Part shown: in pieces, positions 6,619 through 22,879 of the stretch
Layout: each line of letters starts with the position of its first letter
Position numbering within the stretch: position 1 is the first letter of the stretch
Origin: Candidatus Gastranaerophilales bacterium
GTDB lineage: Bacteria > Bacillota > Clostridia > Lachnospirales > Lachnospiraceae
Assembly: GCA_023663225.1 (NCBI GenBank)
Contig: JAMPHU010000016.1
Span: forward strand, 1-56,067
Reading direction: 5' to 3'
Length of the DNA: 56,067 nt
The notes under the pieces: model-generated
What the model was told of the DNA's origin: nothing
The model's database searches: none
The model's input: only the letters and a program-made list of their open reading frames with translations
Translations under genes and position numbers: made by a program

Positions 6619-6840
6619 GCTCCAGCGAGATGAAGATATAGCGAGTGTCATTGTGCGGATGTTATATTCCAATGCAGACACGCTTTCGCTGCACCTCGCT
6701 CGTAACGGTACATAAGATGCCAAAGTACGGCATCTAAGTACCGACGGCTCGCTAGCGTCTGCTTTGGAATATAACATCCGCACAATTCGGACTACAACAT
6801 CCAACAAGATCAACATGCCAGTTACTTACCCCGCTGGAGC
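6619..6840. repeat. Long palindromic intergenic element, copy A
   Basis: Core 6641-6790. Left arm 6650-6683 and right arm 6755-6786 are near-perfect reverse complements starting with ATTGTGCGGATG. Inside, GGTAC...GTACC (6707-6742) encloses a second stem GATGCC/GGCATC with a 7-base loop. A further 9-bp outer stem GCTCCAGCG (6619-6627) / CGCTGGAGC (6832-6840) encloses the whole. A diverged copy lies at 22610-22760. The pair shares long identical single-stranded stretches and compensatory changes in the stems (see findings). There is no transposase nearby. It could be a structured RNA, a MITE-like element or a repeated extragenic palindrome. Confidence 0.8.
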
Positions 6841-6938: not shown

Positions 6939-6967
6939 TTGAATCAAATTGGCAGATATGTTATATT
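6939..6967 (+). promoter_or_regulatory. Promoter of the antisense (antitoxin) RNA
   Basis: TTGAAT at 6939-6944, a 17-bp spacer and TATATT at 6962-6967 point toward the convergent toxin gene. The predicted start is near 6974. Confidence 0.6.
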
Positions 6968-6973
6968 GACAAT

Positions 6974-7061
6974 ATAAAAGAGCAACCGCCCACAAGGTGG
7001 TTTGACCAACTTAGGAATAGAAATTCCACCCCTCGCTCGTCAAAGTTTTGGGGTGGTTTTT
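6974..7061 (+). ncRNA. Candidate antisense RNA antitoxin (RatA-like arrangement)
   Basis: Between the promoter above and a good terminator lies about 88 bases with no credible gene on this strand. The RNA would have a 5' hairpin AACCGCC-cacaa-GGTGGTT (6984-7002) and a terminator hairpin CCACCCC/GGGGTGG (7026-7056) followed by T residues. It runs toward, and ends 10 bases from, the stop codon of the minus-strand toxin gene. It is therefore complementary to the toxin mRNA 3' region, as in txpA/RatA-type pairs. Its antitoxin role is inferred from layout. Confidence 0.6.
7026..7061 (+). terminator. Terminator of the antisense RNA
   Basis: Perfect 7-bp stem CCACCCC / GGGGTGG with a 17-base loop, then a T-run from 7057. 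Confidence 0.7.
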
Positions 7062-7071
7062 CTATGTATGG

Positions 7072-7161
7072 CTACTTACAAAAGGTAAAGATAAATGTAA
7101 GCAATGCCAAAAGGAATATGCCAAACGTCAGCAAATCCTTAAAATCAAAATGATTTTTCAT
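7072..7161 (-). CDS. Type I toxin: 29-residue holin-like membrane peptide
   Basis: Reads MKNHFDFKDLL, then TFGIFLLALLTFIFTFCK: a charged start, one hydrophobic helix (about residues 10-28) and a terminal Lys. The TFGxFLLALLTFIF core strongly resembles the putative holin-like toxins of Firmicutes type I systems (TxpA/BsrG/YonT-like). GGAGGTGAT precedes the ATG (SD-to-ATG spacing about 6). Its leader holds two hairpins: GCAAC-tgt-GTTGC (7206-7218), and CATTC/GAATG next to the Shine-Dalgarno. It is convergent with an antisense RNA that overlaps its 3' region. Such peptides insert in the membrane and stop growth when unpaired; this activity is inferred from the family. Confidence 0.75.
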   Translation of the reverse strand: MKNHFDFKDLLTFGIFLLALLTFIFTFCK

Positions 7162-7227
7162 AGGCATCACCTCCATTCCGTCAGAATGAAAGGTCAGCCC
7201 ACCCTGCAACACAGTTGCTCCATTCCC

Positions 7228-7408: not shown

Positions 7409-7480
7409 AGGACATGTGGATGATTTTGGAAATGCAGTGAAATTGCGTATAGATTGAGGCATGTTGTCGGGAAGGATTGT

Positions 7481-10400
7481 ATGAGAAATTTTTTGGGTTC
7501 CGTAAAAGGGAAGATTGTGATTGTTCTGATTGCGCTGTTGTTGATTGCCGCAATCGTGATTCTTTTTGTCTCCAGAAAGCCAGGGTATCGTTCCATCAGT
7601 ATTTTTGAACTCGATGGGAATGTTTTGGTACAAGATGAAGAGCGGGAATTGAAGGCTTACGATAATATGCGGCTGGAGGGCGGTTCGATCCTTTCCACAG
7701 GCGAGGAGAGTTATGTGCGGCTGCTTTTGGACGATGACAAGTATGTGAAGGTGGAGGAGTCGAGCCGCATCTGTCTGGAGGAAGTGGGGAGTGCAAAGGA
7801 GCCTTACACGCAGATCCGCGTAGATCAGGGCACGCTGACGGTGGAGATCACGACCCCTTTATTGGGAGATGAGGAGTTTGTCATCAATACGCCCAACGCG
7901 GTCATGGCTGTGAGGGGAACTTTTTTTAAGGTGGAAGTGGAGCAGGATGAAAACGGGATTGCTTTTACAAATGTGTATACATACGGCGGCGCGGTGTCCT
8001 GCAATCGAATCCTGCCAAACGGTGAGACTGTGGAGGAGGAAGTCCTGGTGGAAGCGGGCTACAAGGCGCGCGTGAAGATGGACGAAGCGGAAACGGTCTA
8101 TATTGAAGAATTGCTGCAGGAGGAAGATGCGTCTGATTCTGTGGATCCCATTATGCTGGAGGAAGTGCCCGATGACGACCTGGTAGAGATTTACTGTGCC
8201 TCGGAGCACGGCCATGAGATATTTTTGGACAGTGAGACTCTGTGGGAGGAGATCGGCAACAGGGAGATTGACTTAGAGAGTTATCATCAGGTGTACGACG
8301 GCGGGAAAGTACCGGAATATATCCCGCCTTCTCAGGCTGCCTCCGGCGCGGAAGCGGGAGCGGCGACAGAGGAAGGGGCAGAAACCGCGGATATGACGGA
8401 AAACGGCGGAGATTCTGAGGCGGAAGGGGAGACGGCTTCCTCGGAATCCTCGACCTCATCAGAGCAAACTGCAGGCCAGAACGCTTCTGCGAAAAAGCCT
8501 TCCTCGAAGAAGCCTTCGAACCAGACAACTTCCACGAAAACGCCTTCCAATCAGCAGACTTCGGAACAGAAACCGGCGGAGCAAAAGCCTGCCACCCAGA
8601 CGCCTTCCACGCAGCAGTCACAAAAAACGGAAACTGCGCACACCCATACGCCCAAAGTGACCACCTATTCCGCCACCTGCACAGGGACGGGAAAGAGAGT
8701 CACGGTCTGTGAGACCTGCAAGGAAACATTAAAAGAGGAGATTATACCCGCCAGAGGCCATCGGGCGGAAAATGTGGTTGTCACGGAACCCACACCCACT
8801 TCAGAGGGTTTCAGACGGGCGACCTGCGAAGTGTGTGGCGTTCTCTGCGAGGAGACAATCATTCCCGCAGGCATCCCCATCAATGAACAATATTTTCCCG
8901 ATGAAGCTTTCCGGTCCTATCTCTTGAGCGCCTTTGACACAGACGGGGACGGATGTCTGTCCAACGCGGACTTAGCTTCTGTGGAAGTGATTGATATAAA
9001 CGGCCGTAACGTGGCATCTTTAGAGGGAATTTCCTACTTTACCGCCTTAAAGACGCTAAACTGCAGCGGTACGCCGCTTGCCAGCCTGAATGTGAGTGTA
9101 AATGCGGCTCTGGAGGAGCTGAATTGCAGCGATACCAATCTCGCCAGCTTGGATGTGAGTCACAATCCCAATCTGGTCTTTTTGGGGTGCGCCGACACGC
9201 AGCTTACCGGTCTGGATGTGAGCAAAAACTTTGCTTTGGAACAGTTGGACTGCGGCAATACCCCCATCAAGAGTCTGGACGTGAGCAGAAATAGCGCTCT
9301 CAAATACCTGTACTGCAATGGAACAGGGATCCGCACATTGGACGTGAGCAGGAATACTGCGTTGGAAGCTTTATACTGCTCCTACACAGACATAAGCAGT
9401 CTGAATGTAAGTAAAAACACACTCCTGAAGGAGCTGGACTGCGGCAGCACGCAGATCGGCAGTCTGGACGTGAGCCACAATGGGGCATTGCGGGTTCTTT
9501 ATTGTCACAACACCAAGTTGGAGAACCTGAATGTGAGTGGGAATCCGGAGCTGGTAGAATTATACTGCAATTCCTGCCGTTTGACTTGCCTAAATCTGAA
9601 CAATAACAAGAAGCTTACAACCCTGTATGCCGGTGACAATAAATATGACGTCAGCGGCGCGGCTCCTTTCAACATGGCTGCGGTCTCCGGTTTTGATAAG
9701 ACGAAAGTCTCTGGCGTGACCAATGCGGTGTATGACGCCGGCAAGGGAGAATTTGGCTCTTTCACGGGAAAAGTCAGCTATACCTATGACTGCGGAAATG
9801 GGCATAAGGTGACGTTTACCTTGGTTCCGGACGCGATCTCTGTCGTTGTCCCCGACGGCGTGGAGATCAACAGCACCCGTTTTCCGGATGAAATTTTCAG
9901 AAAGTATGTGGCGGAGAATTTTGATAAGGATGGGAATGGGTATTTGTCGGAGGCGGAGATCAATGCGGCGAAGGAGATAGATGTCCATGATTCTCAAGTT
10001 GCTTCTTTGCAGGGATTAGAAGTATTTACTGCGTTGCAATCTTTGTCTTGTTACGATACGCAAATCAGCAAATTGGATGTAAGTAAAAATACCGTGTTGC
10101 AGTATTTAAATTGTAGAACCACACAAATCAGCAAATTGGATGTAAGTCACAATATTGCGTTGCAGTATTTAAATTGTAGAGCCACGCAAATCAGCGAATT
10201 GGATGTAAGTAAAAATATCGCGTTGCAGACTTTGTATTGTTCCAAAACACAAATCAGCAAATTGGATGTAAGTCACAATACCGCGTTGCAGACTTTGTAT
10301 TGTTACGAAACACAAATCAGCGAATTGGATGTGAGTCGAAATACTGCGTTGTATGATTTGCTTTGCAGCTACTGCCGACTTGCATACATTGATGTAACTG

Positions 10401-13400
10401 GAAATTCAAATTTGCGTTCCTGCACAGTGACTTACAATTACTATACCATTCCTGCCGGTTCCACCTTTGACACCGCCAATATTCCAGGCTTTGATAAGTC
10501 AAAGGTATCCAATGTGACAGGAGCAGATTATGATGCTTCTACTGGAATCTTTACCAACATTACCGGAGATATCAGTTACACCTATGACTGCGGGAACAGG
10601 CATAGTGAGACTTTTACGCTACAACTGAATGGAGAATTGGAGGTTCCTGAGGAAGTAGAGATCAACAGCGAGAATTTCCCTGATGATACTTTCAGAGAAT
10701 ATGTGTCATTATATTTTGACAGTGATGAGAATGGGCATTTATCGGATGCAGAGATTGCGGCGGCGACGGTAATTGTTGTTACTGATCCGCAGATTACTTC
10801 TTTGCAAGGGATAGAAATATTTAGCTCCTTGCAGGTCTTGGAATGTTACAACACAAAAATTAGCGAATTAGATGTAAGCCATAATATCTTGTTGCAGGAT
10901 TTGAGGTGTTATAGCACACAAATTAGTGAATTAGATGTAAGTCATAATACCGCGTTACAGCTTTTGAGTTGTGCCTACACAAAAATTAGCAAATTGGATG
11001 TAAGCAAGAATACTGCGTTGCAGGAGTTGAATTGTGACAACACGCGAATCAGTGAATTAGATGTGAGTAAAAATACTGCATTGGAGGAATTGCATTGTGA
11101 TAACACTAAAATTATTAAATTGGATGTAAGCAAAAATACTGCGTTGCACACTTTGTATTGTCGTTTCACGCAAATCAGCGAATTGGATGTAAGTAAAAAT
11201 ACCGCACTGGAAGAGTTGCATTGTACCGACACGCAAATCAGCAAATTGGATATAAGCAAGAATACCGCGTTGCAGTATTTGCATTGTGAAAACACGTCAA
11301 TCAGCGAATTAGATGTAAGTGCAAATATCGCATTGCTGTATTTGTATTGTGGTTACACGCAAATCAGCGAATTGGATGTAAGTCACAATACTGCTTTGCA
11401 GGCTTTGGATTGTTACAATACATCAATCAGCAAATTGGATGTGAGTCGCAATACCTCGTTGCAGAATTTATATTGTGAATGGACGTCAATTAGTGAATTG
11501 GATGTAAGCCACAATACTTCGTTGCAGGTTTTAAATTGTCTCTGTACGCCAATTCGCAAATTGGATATAAGTAAAAATACCGCATTGCGGGAGTTGAATT
11601 GTTCCGGTACGCAAATTAGCGAATTAGATGTAAGTAAGAATACCTTGTTGCAGACTTTACATTGTTACAACACGTCAATTAGCGAATTGAATGTGAGTAA
11701 AAATACCGCATTGCAGGAGTTGGATTGCCGCAACTGCCAACTTGCATACATTGATGTGACTAGAAATCCAAGTTTAAGCGCCTTCTCTGCGGATAACAAT
11801 TCCTATACCATCCCTGCTGGTTCCACCTTTGACGCGACGGCCACCATCTCAGGTTTTGACAAGTCAAAGGTATCAAATGTAACAGGAGCGGATTACGACG
11901 CGTCCACGGGAATCTTTACCAATATTACCGGAGATATCAGTTACATCTATGATTGCGGGAATGGAAAGAGTGGGACTTTTACCCTGAAACTGGATGGGGA
12001 ATTGGCGGTTCCTGAGGGAGTAAAGATCAACAGTGAGAATTTCCCTGATGATACTTTCAGAACGTATGTGACATCAAATTTTGACAGTGATAAGAATGGG
12101 TATTTGTCTGAGGCAGAGATTGCGGCAGTGACCATAATTGATGTCACCAGTCCGCAGGTTACTTCTTTGCAGGGAATAGAACAATTTACTGCATTGGAAA
12201 TTTTGGCTTGTTACAACACACAAATCAGCAAACTAGACATAAGTCAGAATATCGTATTGTGGTGTTTGGCTTGCGACAACACGCTAATCAGCGAATTGGA
12301 TGTAAGTAAGAATACCGCGTTGCAGGGGTTGTCTTGCAACAACACGCCAATCAGCAAATTGGATATAAGTAAAAATACCGCATTGCAGGAGTTGGATTGC
12401 GACAACTGTCAACTTGCATACATTGATGTGACTGGCAATCCAAATTTAAGTACCTTTTCTGCAAAGAACAATTCCTATACCATCCCTGCCGACGCCACCT
12501 TTGACATCACCACCATCTCAGGTTTTGACCCATCAAAGGTATCTGATGTAAAAGGGGCCGATTACAATGCTTCCACAGGAATATTTACTAACATTACCAG
12601 AGATATCAGTTACACTTATGACTGCGGGAATGGAAAGAGCGGAACTTTTACCCTGAAACTGGATGGAGAATTAGTGCTTCCTGAGGGAGTAGCGATCAAT
12701 AGCGAGAATTTCCCTGATACTATTTTCAGAGAGTATGTGGCATCAAATTTTGATAGTGATGAGAATGGGCATTTGTCTGAGGCGGAGATTGCGGCAGTAA
12801 AGAAAATTAATGTCTCTAACTCACAGGTTACTTCTTTGCAAGGGATAGAAATATTTACCACATTGCAATATTTATATTGTTACTCTACGCAAATCAGCGA
12901 ATTGGATGTAAATAACAATATTGCGTTGGAGACTTTGGATTGTCGTTTCACGCAAATCAGCGAATTGGATGTAAGTAACAATATCGCGTTGCAGGATTTG
13001 TATTGTTACGGCATGAAAATCAACGAATTGGATGTGAGTAACAATACTGCGTTGCAGGATTTGAATTGTTCCGACACACAAATCAACGAATTGGATGTAA
13101 GTAACAATACTGCGTTGCATGCGCTTCAGTGTTCCTCCACGTCAATCAGCGAATTAGATGTAAGTAGGAATACCGCATTGCGGGAGTTGCATTGTGGCTC
13201 CACAAATATTAGTAAATTGGATGTAAGTAACAATACCGCGTTGCAGGGTTTGGGTTGTTCCTCCACGCAAATCAGCGAATTGGATGTAAGCAACAATACT
13301 GCGTTGCAGCGTTTGGCTTGTTCCGACACGCAAATCAGTGAATTGGATGTAAGCAACAATACTGCGTTGCAGCATTTGGCTTGTTCCTCCACGCAAATCA

Positions 13401-14503
13401 GTGAATTGGATGTAAGTCAGCATACCGATTTACAGCAATTATTCTGTGAGAATTGCAATCTTGCGTATATTGATGTGGCTGGAAATCAAAAGCTGGAAGC
13501 CTTTTCTGTGACTAACAATCACTATACCATTCCTGCTGGTTCCACCTTTGACGCGACCACCATCTCAGGTTTTGTCCCGTCAAAGGTATCTAATGTGACA
13601 GGGGCCGATTACGATACTTCCACGGGAATCTTTACCAACATTACCGGAGATATCAGTTACACTTATGACTGCGGGAATAGAAAAAGCGGAACTTTTACCC
13701 TGAAACTGGATGGAGAATTAGTGCTTCCTGAAGGAGTAGCGATCAACAGCGAGAATTTCCCTGATGATACTTTCAGAACGTATGTGATATCCAATTTTGA
13801 CAGTGATAAGAATGGGTATTTGTCTGATGCGGAGATTGCGGCGGTAAAGGAAATAGATGTCTCTAGCTTACAGGTTACTTCTTTGCAAGGAATAGAAAAC
13901 TTTATCGCACTGCAAACTTTGGATTGTAACAATACACCAATCAGCGAATTGAATGTAAGTAACAATACTGCGTTACAGGAGTTGGATTGTTCCTACACGT
14001 CAATCAGTGAATTGGAGGTAAGTCGAAATAACTACTTACGGACTTTAGTTTGCAATAACTGCCACCTTACGTACCTTGATGTGACCGGAAATCCAAATTT
14101 AAGCACCTTCTCTGCGGATAATAATTCCTATATCATTCCTGCCTATTCCACCTTTGATGCTACCACTATCTCCGGTTTTGACAAGGGAATGGTATATTAT
14201 GTAGATGGAGCGGATTATGACACTTCCACGGGAATGTTCACTAACATTACAGGGGATAACATCCACTACAATTACAACTGCGGAAACGAATGGATTGTTA
14301 AGGTTACCTTGGTAAGAGCTTCCACGGGTTCTGGAAATACTACAGGTTCCGGAAATACTGCGCTTCCTCAAAGCGGAGAGATTACCACAGAAACGGAACA
14401 GAACGACATGGACACGATGTTTGTAGTGTCGGATCTTCTTTTGATCGCGGTGGTCTCCAATGTGTTATTGCGCCTTTTGATCCGCTCGTTAAAAAGAAGT
14501 TGA
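7481..14503 (+). CDS. Giant exported FecR / EF-hand / leucine-rich-repeat surface protein
   Basis: About 2340 residues. Order: one N-terminal transmembrane helix (about 8-28); a FecR-like domain (about 40-210, with INTPNAVMAVRGTFFKVEVE); a Ser/Thr/Pro/Lys/Gln-rich linker (about 290-390); and a Cys-rich segment of the CxxC...GH type common in Firmicutes surface proteins. Six modules then begin near residues 467, 796, 1061, 1516, 1739 and 2088. Each module has an EF-hand-like loop such as DSDKNGYLSEAE, a run of 21-residue repeats (LDVSKNTALQxLxCxxTxIS) and a closing IDVTGN...CGNG...LKLDGEL unit. By eye the repeat counts are 8, 5, 14, 3, 9 and 2. The end has LPQSGE, a hydrophobic helix and KRS. 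ATG 7481 is preceded by GGGAAGGA; TTG 7454 is upstream and rejected. Likely an anchored adhesin or sensor; the ligand is unknown. Confidence 0.88.
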   Translation: MRNFLGSVKGKIVIVLIALLLIAAIVILFVSRKPGYRSISIFELDGNVLVQDEERELKAYDNMRLEGGSILSTGEESYVRLLLDDDKYVKVEESSRICLEEVGSAKEPYTQIRVDQGTLTVEITTPLLGDEEFVINTPNAVMAVRGTFFKVEVEQDENGIAFTNVYTYGGAVSCNRILPNGETVEEEVLVEAGYKARVKMDEAETVYIEELLQEEDASDSVDPIMLEEVPDDDLVEIYCASEHGHEIFLDSETLWEEIGNREIDLESYHQVYDGGKVPEYIPPSQAASGAEAGAATEEGAETADMTENGGDSEAEGETASSESSTSSEQTAGQNASAKKPSSKKPSNQTTSTKTPSNQQTSEQKPAEQKPATQTPSTQQSQKTETAHTHTPKVTTYSATCTGTGKRVTVCETCKETLKEEIIPARGHRAENVVVTEPTPTSEGFRRATCEVCGVLCEETIIPAGIPINEQYFPDEAFRSYLLSAFDTDGDGCLSNADLASVEVIDINGRNVASLEGISYFTALKTLNCSGTPLASLNVSVNAALEELNCSDTNLASLDVSHNPNLVFLGCADTQLTGLDVSKNFALEQLDCGNTPIKSLDVSRNSALKYLYCNGTGIRTLDVSRNTALEALYCSYTDISSLNVSKNTLLKELDCGSTQIGSLDVSHNGALRVLYCHNTKLENLNVSGNPELVELYCNSCRLTCLNLNNNKKLTTLYAGDNKYDVSGAAPFNMAAVSGFDKTKVSGVTNAVYDAGKGEFGSFTGKVSYTYDCGNGHKVTFTLVPDAISVVVPDGVEINSTRFPDEIFRKYVAENFDKDGNGYLSEAEINAAKEIDVHDSQVASLQGLEVFTALQSLSCYDTQISKLDVSKNTVLQYLNCRTTQISKLDVSHNIALQYLNCRATQISELDVSKNIALQTLYCSKTQISKLDVSHNTALQTLYCYETQISELDVSRNTALYDLLCSYCRLAYIDVTGNSNLRSCTVTYNYYTIPAGSTFDTANIPGFDKSKVSNVTGADYDASTGIFTNITGDISYTYDCGNRHSETFTLQLNGELEVPEEVEINSENFPDDTFREYVSLYFDSDENGHLSDAEIAAATVIVVTDPQITSLQGIEIFSSLQVLECYNTKISELDVSHNILLQDLRCYSTQISELDVSHNTALQLLSCAYTKISKLDVSKNTALQELNCDNTRISELDVSKNTALEELHCDNTKIIKLDVSKNTALHTLYCRFTQISELDVSKNTALEELHCTDTQISKLDISKNTALQYLHCENTSISELDVSANIALLYLYCGYTQISELDVSHNTALQALDCYNTSISKLDVSRNTSLQNLYCEWTSISELDVSHNTSLQVLNCLCTPIRKLDISKNTALRELNCSGTQISELDVSKNTLLQTLHCYNTSISELNVSKNTALQELDCRNCQLAYIDVTRNPSLSAFSADNNSYTIPAGSTFDATATISGFDKSKVSNVTGADYDASTGIFTNITGDISYIYDCGNGKSGTFTLKLDGELAVPEGVKINSENFPDDTFRTYVTSNFDSDKNGYLSEAEIAAVTIIDVTSPQVTSLQGIEQFTALEILACYNTQISKLDISQNIVLWCLACDNTLISELDVSKNTALQGLSCNNTPISKLDISKNTALQELDCDNCQLAYIDVTGNPNLSTFSAKNNSYTIPADATFDITTISGFDPSKVSDVKGADYNASTGIFTNITRDISYTYDCGNGKSGTFTLKLDGELVLPEGVAINSENFPDTIFREYVASNFDSDENGHLSEAEIAAVKKINVSNSQVTSLQGIEIFTTLQYLYCYSTQISELDVNNNIALETLDCRFTQISELDVSNNIALQDLYCYGMKINELDVSNNTALQDLNCSDTQINELDVSNNTALHALQCSSTSISELDVSRNTALRELHCGSTNISKLDVSNNTALQGLGCSSTQISELDVSNNTALQRLACSDTQISELDVSNNTALQHLACSSTQISELDVSQHTDLQQLFCENCNLAYIDVAGNQKLEAFSVTNNHYTIPAGSTFDATTISGFVPSKVSNVTGADYDTSTGIFTNITGDISYTYDCGNRKSGTFTLKLDGELVLPEGVAINSENFPDDTFRTYVISNFDSDKNGYLSDAEIAAVKEIDVSSLQVTSLQGIENFIALQTLDCNNTPISELNVSNNTALQELDCSYTSISELEVSRNNYLRTLVCNNCHLTYLDVTGNPNLSTFSADNNSYIIPAYSTFDATTISGFDKGMVYYVDGADYDTSTGMFTNITGDNIHYNYNCGNEWIVKVTLVRASTGSGNTTGSGNTALPQSGEITTETEQNDMDTMFVVSDLLLIAVVSNVLLRLLIRSLKRS
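8879..14290 (+). repeat. Six tandem coding modules with internal 63-bp leucine-rich repeats
   Basis: Module starts are at 8879, 9866, 10661, 12026, 12695 and 13742. Within modules the 63-bp unit (for example AATCAGCGAATTGGATGTAA) recurs nearly unchanged. Module 1 is visibly G/C-rich at third codon positions (GTGAGC), whereas modules 2-6 are A/T-rich (GTAAGT). The later modules therefore look like recent copies of a different parent. High DNA identity makes recombination and length change likely. Confidence 0.85.
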
Positions 14504-21020: not shown

Positions 21021-22551
21021 TAACACACGTTCCAGGGACACCGCGCGCAAAGAGCCTCGTCTGAAAGAGAAATCTGCCGTCAAACAAGGGGTAAAGGGCA
21101 TTTCCGCCAAAAAGAGGCGCGGAAACAAGCGGGAGATCATGGGAACCGCCGTTGCGTTTGTGGCGCTGTTTTTAGCAATGATCGCCTATCTGGGGCATTT
21201 TGTGGCGACCAGCGAGCAGGAGATGATCAACAACAGCTATAATTCCCGCCAGCAGATCCTTCTCTCTCAAAATTACCGCGGCAGCATTTTCTCGCGGGAT
21301 GGAGAGGTACTGGCGGAAACCGTGCTGGACGAGGAGCAGGTTGAAAAGAGAGTGTACCCCTACGGAGCGCTTTTTTCCCATATCGTAGGCTATTCCACCC
21401 AGGGCAGGATGGGAGTGGAGGCTTTGGCCAATTACTATCTGATCAACACCAACACTTCTCTGAGCAATAAGGTGGCAAACGATATGGCAGGAATCAAGAA
21501 TCCCGGGGACAATGTGTACACCACCTTGGATGTACAGATTCAGCAGATCGCAGATGAGCAGTTGAGCGTCTATAAGGGCGCAATCATAGTCACGGAGGTG
21601 TCCACCGGCCGAATCTTAGCCATGGTATCCCACCCTGACTTCGACCCCAACGAGATCGATGAGATCTGGGACAGTCTGATCGAGAGCAGCGACAGTTCTG
21701 TGCTGTTAAACCGCGCCACGCAGGGACTTTATCCGCCGGGATCCACCTTTAAGATCCTCACGGCGTTGGAATATTACCGCGAAAATCCGGATCATTACCA
21801 AGCCTATTCGTTTCAATGCAACGGGCATTTCGACATGGATGGGAGCCGGATCAACTGTTATCACGGGGCGAATCATGGAGCGGTGAATTTTACCACCTCT
21901 TTCGCCAAGTCCTGCAATTCCTCCTTTGCCAAAATCGGCATGGGACTGGAACGCTCCGCATTTGAGGAGACGTTGGAGGATCTTTTGTTTAACAGAGAGC
22001 TTCCGCTGACGCTCAACTACGCCAAAAGCGCGGTTCAGAATTTGGAAGAATTGGACACGGACGCGATGATGCAGACTTCCATCGGCCAGGGACGGACGCA
22101 GATCACGCCCATCCATCTGAATATGATCACCAGCGCGATCGCAAACGACGGGATTCTGATGACCCCTTACGTTGTGGATCATGTGGAAAACGACGCGGGA
22201 AGCGTGATCAAAAGCTTCCGCGCGAGCAGTTACGGGAGGCTTATGAGCGAAGATGAGGCGGCCATGCTGAAAGAATTGATGATCTCCGTCGTACAGCAGG
22301 GCACCGCCAGCAAATTAAAGGGATTAAATTACACGGCGGCGGGTAAAACCGGCTCCGCTGAATATAATGATACCAAGGGAGACAGTCACGCATGGTTCAC
22401 CGGTTTTGCACCGGCGGAGGATCCGCAGGTGTGCGTCACGATTATTATAGAGGGCGCCGGTTCAGGGGGGGATTATGCGGTGCCTATCGCAAAGAGGTTG
22501 TTTGACGCGTATTTTGCAGAGCAGCCGGCGGCAACAGATCATCAGCCATAA
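20965..22551 (+). CDS. Class B penicillin-binding protein (PbpA/FtsI-type transpeptidase)
   Basis: 528 residues. A basic, Lys-rich cytoplasmic start of about 50 residues precedes one membrane anchor (about 56-76, VAFVALFLAMIAYLGHFV). After a short dimerisation region comes the transpeptidase domain: active-site Ser260 in GSTFK, SCN in SFAKSCNSSFAKIG, and Lys461-Thr-Gly in AGKTGSAEY. It crosslinks peptidoglycan outside the membrane with the SEDS protein encoded just upstream. No PASTA repeats are present. ATG 20965 has GGAGG 4 bases before it and overlaps ftsW-like by 56 bases in another frame. Confidence 0.92.
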   Translation: MDRKKMDRTQKRSYPKKHDNTRSRDTARKEPRLKEKSAVKQGVKGISAKKRRGNKREIMGTAVAFVALFLAMIAYLGHFVATSEQEMINNSYNSRQQILLSQNYRGSIFSRDGEVLAETVLDEEQVEKRVYPYGALFSHIVGYSTQGRMGVEALANYYLINTNTSLSNKVANDMAGIKNPGDNVYTTLDVQIQQIADEQLSVYKGAIIVTEVSTGRILAMVSHPDFDPNEIDEIWDSLIESSDSSVLLNRATQGLYPPGSTFKILTALEYYRENPDHYQAYSFQCNGHFDMDGSRINCYHGANHGAVNFTTSFAKSCNSSFAKIGMGLERSAFEETLEDLLFNRELPLTLNYAKSAVQNLEELDTDAMMQTSIGQGRTQITPIHLNMITSAIANDGILMTPYVVDHVENDAGSVIKSFRASSYGRLMSEDEAAMLKELMISVVQQGTASKLKGLNYTAAGKTGSAEYNDTKGDSHAWFTGFAPAEDPQVCVTIIIEGAGSGGDYAVPIAKRLFDAYFAEQPAATDHQP

Positions 22552-22585
22552 AGAGGGCGTTTTAGGTTGAGGGCGGAGCGAGTGT

Positions 22586-22760
22586 GCGAGTGTCATTGTG
22601 CGGAGGGCAGCGAGTGTCATTGTGCGGATGGTATCTTCCAACGCAGACACGCTTTCGCTGCACCTCGCTCGTAGCGGTACATAAGCGGCTAAAAGACAGC
22701 CGCTAAGTACCGACGGCTCACTGGCGTCTGCTTTTGGAAGATATCATCCGCACAATTCGG
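22586..22760. repeat. Long palindromic intergenic element, copy B
   Basis: Core 22610-22760. Arms 22619-22652 and 22724-22756 are reverse complements beginning ATTGTGCGGATG. The inner stem GGTAC...GTACC (22676-22711) encloses GCGGCT/AGCCGC. The single-stranded stretch GCAGACACGCTTTCGCTGCA and the following CCTCGCTCGTA are identical to copy A at 6641-6790. The first 19 bases of the element (GCGAGTGTCATTGTGCGGA) are duplicated at 22586-22604 just before the element. It fills the gap between the PBP and Nudix genes. The remaining 22761-22879 shows no further structure I can name. Confidence 0.8.
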
Positions 22761-22879
22761 ATTACAGCATCCGGCAAAAAACTGACATTTACAATTAACT
22801 CTGTTAGAGCGAGTCGGACTGATAAGCCTGAAAAAGCGGAACTGTTGTATGCGGGTCAATACAGGTCATGGAGGAAAAT

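Follow-up and report, generated by a model that had tools for sequence, protein, structure and literature searches.

Copies of a widespread family of inserted palindromic elements in Lachnospiraceae, with a conserved Y-shaped core

Analysis of the window (the whole stretch of DNA studied here, 56,067 nt) led to two copies of a palindromic element, the first located past a MATE gene and the second between a PBP and a NUDIX gene. Sequence inspection placed the palindromes at 6641-6790 (copy A) and 22610-22760 (copy B). Covariance model R1, built from alignment A1 of 61 minus-strand copies in which copy A is training row L001, returned exactly these two matches with cmsearch in the 56,067-nt window, without a third, and each lies on the minus strand. 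The sequence-only reading of this DNA had stated that no gene lies inside the element, which our data support. Copy A folds at -72.8 kcal/mol (z -9.3) and copy B at -72.0 kcal/mol (z -9.1), and for neither was an equally low energy found in 200 dinucleotide shuffles (0/200 each). The features of both copies are:

6651..6782, minus (the GNRA-loop strand): copy A, Y-shaped fold (cmsearch, 122.5 bits, E 2.2e-37)
6651..6672: copy A, outer stem P1, first arm TTGTGCGGATGTTATATTCCAA (sequence)
6764..6785: copy A, outer stem P1, second arm TTGGAATATAACATCCGCACAA (sequence)
6682..6689, minus: copy A, two-pair hairpin GCGAAAGC with a GAAA (GNRA) loop (sequence and GNRA rule)
6706..6743, minus: copy A, core with the CGGTAC helix, internal loop and inner stem P3 (sequence and covariation)
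6716-6721 with 6729-6734: copy A, variable inner stem P3, closed by a 7-base loop (6722-6728)
6619..6627: GCTCCAGCG outside copy A, complementary to 6832-6840, a possible outer end of the insertion
6832..6840: CGCTGGAGC beyond the other side of copy A, complement of 6619-6627
22620..22752, minus: copy B, covariance-model match (cmsearch, 118.1 bits, E 6e-36)
22620..22641: copy B, outer stem P1, first arm (sequence)
22734..22755: copy B, outer stem P1, second arm (sequence)
22651..22658, minus: copy B, mini-hairpin GCGAAAGC with a GNRA loop (sequence)
22685..22703, minus: copy B, variable inner stem GCGGCT/AGCCGC with loop AAAAGAC (sequence)
22531..22848: copy B, probable whole insertion (sequence, gap length against five relatives, ends of other copies)

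The two copies had been described as sharing identical loops and joints, with stems that differ in a paired way. The inner stem, GATGCC/GGCATC in copy A and GCGGCT/AGCCGC in copy B, is indeed changed on both sides at three pairs, and the change of an outer-stem A-T pair (A) to C-G (B) is present as well. The paired difference of the outer stems is incomplete, as one T-A pair of copy A corresponds to G-T on the plus strand of copy B, which is an A-C mismatch on the minus strand and is unpaired in the predicted fold. Identity of the loops and joints was an overstatement: the apical loop reads AAAGTAC in copy A and AAAAGAC in copy B, and the copies also differ at CGTAACGG/CGTAGCGG, GCTCGCTAGCG/GCTCACTGGCG and CTTTGG/CTTTTGG. 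Further along the window, about 250 non-coding bases (6956-7223) upstream of a 2349-aa frame (7454-14503) have matches at 77-80% in four relatives (G082, G027, G017, G031), along all or just part of the stretch. Where the contig is known, it differs from that of the MATE gene; these bases are possibly a leader, a promoter region or another repeat.

Read on the minus strand, the fold of the family runs from a long outer stem through a joint to a two-pair hairpin GC-GNRA-GC on the 3' side, then a lower stem and the core. The core carries the strongly kept helix CGTCGGTAC/GTACCGCTACG. In it, CGT-CGGTAC / GTACCG-YTACG is followed by the internal loop TTA/TTAY, then by the variable inner stem and by the loop GTNYTTT. 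Stem letters change in matched pairs from copy to copy, and the shape and loops stay nearly constant; as an exception, the lower stem P2 reads as unpaired in the copies of the genome that holds the window (own genome). The tetraloop is GNRA in 203 of 213 scored rows overall (100/109 and 103/104, in sets that share few copies). The 109-row set left 18 of 127 rows unscored, many since the pattern required a fixed base after the hairpin, and in some of these (e.g., L144, L182, L195) the hairpin is missing or altered. The second tetraloop base is never T in the 213 scored rows. Loops of the GUAA and GUGA type are ordinary in RNA.

Conserved loops with covarying stems, first proposed from two copies, hold in alignments of 61 (A1) and 104 (A2) sequences. 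In A1, 329 cells are changed on both sides against 110 (sd 9) in shuffles, and 92.3% of the cells are paired against 26-46% when the alignment is slid. Each of the five variable inner-stem pairs is changed on both sides in 24 to 35 of the 61 sequences. Four of the five whole-structure measures exceed all 500 shuffles and all of them exceed every slid version; for the fifth, the number of doubly changed pairs, 28 of 500 shuffles came up to the observed value. Core identity in A1 holds by construction, because this set was chosen by an exact core pattern. A2 comprises 104 model matches (94 non-redundant at 0.86, six near-identical to A1 rows) in which the core was free to vary, fitted to the model and hence biased towards it. 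There, 793 cells are changed on both sides against 219 (sd 13) in shuffles, 97.2% of the cells are paired against 29-45% when slid, and double changes occur in 25 of 27 pairs. The CGGTAC helix itself shows paired variation; for one measure, pair types, 146 of 500 shuffles came up to the observed value. Covariation far above the controls in both alignments shows that the paired pattern is not an accident of two copies. Rather than stem differences breaking the pairing as often as they keep it, the opposite was seen: the inner-stem helix is paired in 99.2% of the cells in A1 and 98.1% in A2. In the own genome, the inner stem could be read in 35 of 40 stretches, two being cut by contig ends and three having no inner stem; all five variable pairs are intact in 34 of these 35, and the remaining one has four. 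The 34 fall into six stem types, and an additional nested hairpin is present in 12 of the 35.

At the DNA level, the own genome (3.29 Mb, 111 contigs, 94.5% complete) yielded 85 matching pieces, with strong matches in 41 places, which were fetched as 40 stretches. Within Lachnospiraceae, the covariance model matched 117 of 250 sampled genomes and 116 of 249 genera at E 0.001; the counts per genome in this sample are lower bounds, given that at most 13 candidates of each genome were scored. When more candidates were scored, three genomes gave 33, 61 and 39 matches at E 0.01, and of the latter two (G841 and G842) 40 and 20 stretches, respectively, were fetched. In a sample of the phylum that lists five genomes of Lachnospiraceae, 5 of 398 genomes matched, namely the own genome, three other family members and one of another class, which makes one of about 393 genomes of other families. 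In the class of that lone match, 2 of 150 genomes matched, both of one genus. The exact core pattern was found in at least 111 stretches of named genomes, and of the 80 listed the majority bear titles of Lachnospiraceae, Clostridiales or genera within them, one being Muribaculum. Carriers include Kineothrix sp. MSJ-39 and Lachnospiraceae bacterium G11. Copies A and B are thus two members of a family of inserted hairpins that is widespread in Lachnospiraceae. Exact core matches in viral contigs were 0, plasmid matches were absent at E 0.001 and the phage records yielded one weak 49-base match in a 4,172-base record; a phage or plasmid origin was rejected.

Several arrangements of the copies were also recorded. 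Genome G170 has tandem runs of three elements each (C59, 125283-125742; C21, 12415-12920), with steps of 164 and 187 bases. In G851 (L402, 197-685), two elements of opposite orientation have mutually complementary outer ends and form a palindrome of palindromes. At five places of the own genome (L011, L012, L014, L031, L036), a second palindromic module (GCTCCAGYGGGGTAATTGTTCCCATGAGG...) with the same core lies beside the first in opposite orientation and is a second subfamily. Another repeat (GGGATACAGGAGCATAGGTTACAGAG...GAGACTCCGGCGATGCCCGTCC) comes after copies L009, L017, L020, L026, L027 and L029 of the own genome.

The elements are insertions. Between the aligned ends of the PBP and NUDIX genes lie about 355 bases here against 23-99 in relatives, the gap being short in all five where both flanking genes were found together, and model matches at 10 loci orthologous to the copy B site were 0. 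The ends of the copy B insertion, GCAACAGATCATCAGCC on the left and AAGCGGAACTGTTGT on the right, are degenerate when compared by eye with the GTAACAGTTCAGCC of better kept copies, and the left one overlaps the 3' end of the PBP gene. The last codons and stop of that gene seem to derive from the left end of the insertion (22531-22551), and its alignments to relatives stop at residue 517-520 of 528. Concerning copy A, no counterpart was found after the orthologous MATE gene in eight of nine loci and the ninth has an element 775 bases past the gene end; this empty-site test is the weaker one, since the gene order after the MATE gene is not kept. A third site was studied in genome G006. Its two flanking genes are neighbours in 45 of the 61 genomes in the genus, and in 39 of these 45 the matches are at most 158 bases apart. 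Model search of 29 genomes at this site, among them long-gap genomes chosen on purpose, detected full elements in four (G006, G862, G851, G032), a 26-base fragment match in G005 and long gaps without an element in G018 and G847. The four full elements have unlike arms and orientations, so this gene gap has been filled more than once.

The ends of the copies were searched for inverted repeats and target duplications. In the own genome there are 11 core-bearing pairs of GTAACAGTTCAGCC-like ends, and core-bearing units with two ends measure 257-532 bp. The target duplication is 8/8 bases in four of these pairs (L006, L025, L031, L041), 7/8 in L018 and 6 or fewer in the other six; the same ends are found without the core, with an 8/8 duplication, in L055 and L075. 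Other genomes have TAGGYAATTGCGAA ends with duplications of 10-11 bases, or other ends. Terminal inverted repeats are accordingly clear in part of the copies (GTAACAGTTCAGCC, TAGGYAATTGCGAA) and were not found in many others. A strict script, which misses some, accepted ends plus duplication in 22 of 123 loci (of 127 rows) against 0, 3, 0, 2 and 0 in five shuffled controls, leaving 101 loci without. About 13 of the 22 are convincing; eight others are matches of the TTGTACAA or TGTGCACA type that lie inside the arms and are self-complementary, and a further one is doubtful. As for the window itself, terminal inverted repeats were not found at copy A and no target duplication was seen at copy A or copy B. 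Short gaps in relatives, together with terminal inverted repeats and target duplications in some copies, bear out the suggestion of a MITE-like element. Moreover, units with unlike ends carry the same core, and judging from the ends only, different transposases should move them. In the own genome, TAACAGTTCAGCC with up to one mismatch occurs at 110 places against 2 for a backwards control, and several contigs end within about 60 bases of it, suggesting that the assembly breaks at these repeats.

Neither of the two transposase families searched provided a parent in the own genome. Y1 transposase (Y1_Tnp) gave 0 matches at E 0.001, the same search being positive in 5 of 14 control genomes, and IS66 transposase gave no match, for which reason IS66 was rejected as parent of the 8-base-duplication units. 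No ORF family is obviously linked to the copies. A co-travelling protein family was rejected as well: ORF clusters found in four or more loci number seven; three of them are frames that for the most part run over the element, and the other four lie at varied distances from it and were given no identification by family search. These data bear on the earlier suggestion of a REP-like palindrome, which is not supported for REPs of the RAYT type, as the Y1 match is absent and the element is several times longer. A GTAG/CGTC-tagged REP mobilized by RAYT is highly improbable on the same grounds, with 20-40 bp in REPs against about 130 here and with a conserved GNRA side hairpin and target duplications in the present units, although the core does have GTAG before the hairpin on one strand and CGTC on the other, like the tags in the consulted part of PMC3733652.

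The paired changes of the stems had been taken to imply selection on a folded strand, and this was too strong. In 37 copies of G841 and 17 of G842 (5 of 59 could not be parsed), arm complementarity within a copy averages 0.81 and 0.79, against 0.57 and 0.55 between copies. The paired stretches run 30-89 bases in the 37 listed copies, and many copies of G841 have a common inner AAAAAGCTTTC-like stretch and differ outside it. Uncoupled drift of two arms should not give such complementarity within a copy, and the coupling may be due to selection or to template switching. In the abstract of PMC8794818, template switching in replication is described as able to create and mend paired arms or hairpins. 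An ordinary MITE could thus have a stable palindrome and a functionless fold, with paired changes coming only from template switching (quasipalindrome correction). Arms that differ among copies in one genome, and pairing over 30-89 bases that in some copies passes any obvious functional end, agree with such an origin, as does the behaviour of the wobble pairs. In a first count of 54 non-redundant copies, G-T pairs numbered 77 for the minus and 32 for the plus strand (31 vs. 8 copies), and a count with arms up to 90 bases gave 115:83 (26 vs. 13 copies, p 0.05). Without the junction, the outer arms gave 79:70 in this longer-arm set, 50:43 in G841 and 3:20 in G842, where the plus strand is favored. 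As the first excess is lost with longer arms, we make no claim of an RNA strand for the arms, which stay paired without a consistent strand preference; template switching, as part of the cause, would account for copy-specific arms of this kind.

The core behaves differently, and here the case for selection on the fold is stronger. On the minus strand, inner-core mismatches are 82 G-T and 22 A-C in all, or 18 G-T and 4 A-C without two columns, one a fixed column of 64 G-T and the other a column of 18 A-C that looks like a shifted bulge. By wobble pairs, a strand preference is therefore seen in the inner core only (18:4); in the outer arms it is absent and, in G842, reversed. The folding energy is lower on the minus strand in 55 of 61 copies, which may owe much to the tetraloop bonus. 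Conservation in place rests on one informative pair of orthologous sites (L163/L194), where the core is identical at 49 of 50 positions between far flanks of 86% and 80%. The two copies there have identical inner stems, differ in the tetraloop (GGGA against GAAA) and show double-sided changes at several pairs of the arms. Two further site pairs are less informative (48/50 with a 90% flank; 49/50 with 97-98% flanks). The near-invariant loops and joints, the GNRA rule on one strand, the unpaired internal loops and bulges and the 49/50 core identity within 80-86% flanks are all left unexplained by an ordinary MITE with a functionless fold, which we regard as rather unlikely. Conserved loops, the GNRA rule and the inner mismatches make it probable that the core is maintained for the fold of one of its strands. 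Our preferred reading, held with middling confidence, is that of a MITE-like insertion in which the core acts as a single strand in folded form, probably as RNA, a function that we infer from this conservation.

The position of the copies relative to genes was studied with regard to possible transcription. Orientation showed no bias (53:67, p 0.24; 32 of 152 cores were not classed), and co-transcription or a replication-strand bias was rejected on this basis. No promoter-like site was found on the minus strand of copies A and B, so an own promoter was rejected too; neither gene orientation nor promoters show how the folding strand would be transcribed. Among 98 copies, 10 lie between convergent genes, 13 between divergent and 53 between same-direction genes, with 22 undetermined or inside a frame, and hence without an excess of convergent genes. 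One window copy has a single weak terminator-like site against a shuffled mean of 0.4 and the other has none, which is near chance; neither mark of an intrinsic terminator stood out, a T-run after the stem in the window copies or placement after genes in the 98. A role of the element at particular genes, as cis-regulatory RNA or as bidirectional transcription terminator, could draw on the A-tract/T-tract pairs that end some G841 copies (e.g., AAAAAG...CTTTTT), but the tested sites are not conserved and, given also the gene arrangement and the window copies, we find this very doubtful. The core is strand-specific yet without orientation bias to genes, which would also suit a folded single strand (ssDNA or RNA) that is itself the mobile intermediate and is recognized by an enzyme, the inverted repeats and duplications coming from later carriers. 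The same core in units with different ends and duplication lengths, and the 101 of 123 loci in which the strict script, which misses some, found no ends plus duplication, point in that direction. Clean 8-base duplications with inverted ends fit a DDE transposase instead, and with no Y1 transposase in the own genome and no obvious linked gene such an intermediate seems unlikely.

Under the preferred reading of a MITE-like insertion with a folded core, short non-coding and non-autonomous units insert between genes, each with one conserved Y-shaped fold. DDE transposases of other elements would move the whole unit by way of its outer ends. After insertion, the minus strand of the core would act as a folded single strand, most likely as read-through RNA transcribed from outside, and some trans-acting factor may bind it. 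The long arms would be kept complementary partly by template switching at the DNA level. A further proposal, which we advance tentatively and think somewhat improbable, is that the Y-shaped core forms an independent module (RNA or single strand) that has a partner of its own in the cell. Several transposable units of unlike kind would have acquired it, selection would then have maintained it at its sites, and its arms would be rewritten copy by copy through hairpin-templated copying. If so, a shape would be inherited without its letters. Should the core function as a folded strand, genomes of this common bacterial family hold as many as dozens of copies of an RNA-like structure that has no name, with a partner still to be found. 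Should the arms stay paired through template switching and nothing else, that process has left an extensive record in nature in this family, with new arms at many sites, and the family warns against taking covariation by itself as proof of RNA function.

In the open texts searched, no account of this kind of repeat from Lachnospiraceae turned up; motifs without a name from large surveys would be found in supplementary tables (PMC8040213, PMC11109978, PMC8632094), which lie outside this scope. Rfam, to which the sequence-only reading had pointed, gave 0 matches at gathering score in the window, and with E up to 1 in seven loci only the drum RNA, beside an element in L086 and not on it. This match (L086, 979-1089) is below threshold, with 33.2 bits for a cut-off of 43, and lies some 400 bases from the element. 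The mobile/repeat sequence candidates (MRSC motifs), such as MRSC-65-2, resemble the present family in their covarying structure, dozens of copies per genome and inconsistent orientation to genes; in the section of PMC11109978 that was consulted, MRSC-65-2 is a single long stem with a UYCCGG repeat, whereas a GNRA side hairpin and a CGTCGGTAC core are found here. GTAG/CGTC-tagged REPs, going by the excerpted text of PMC3733652, are likewise dispersed palindromes with GTAG or CGTC next to a hairpin, but they differ in length, fold and host group, and the own genome is without Y1 transposase. Structured RNAs capped by GNRA loops share the tetraloop, a branched fold and conserved internal loops with our elements, in which, by comparison, the tetraloop hairpin has only two pairs and no Rfam family matches. 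ERIC and Correia elements are MITE-like small repeats. The BOX and RUP elements of Streptococcus, as presented in the portion consulted of PMC3049150, are similarly short and non-coding, with many intergenic copies, predicted stem-loops and ends resembling IS ends. Compared with BOX, RUP, ERIC and Correia elements, the family described here stands apart by its Y-shaped core, in which the loops hardly change and the paired stems vary freely, by the presence of this core in units whose ends are unlike and by arms that differ among the copies of a genome; it is present in about half of the sampled genera of one family.
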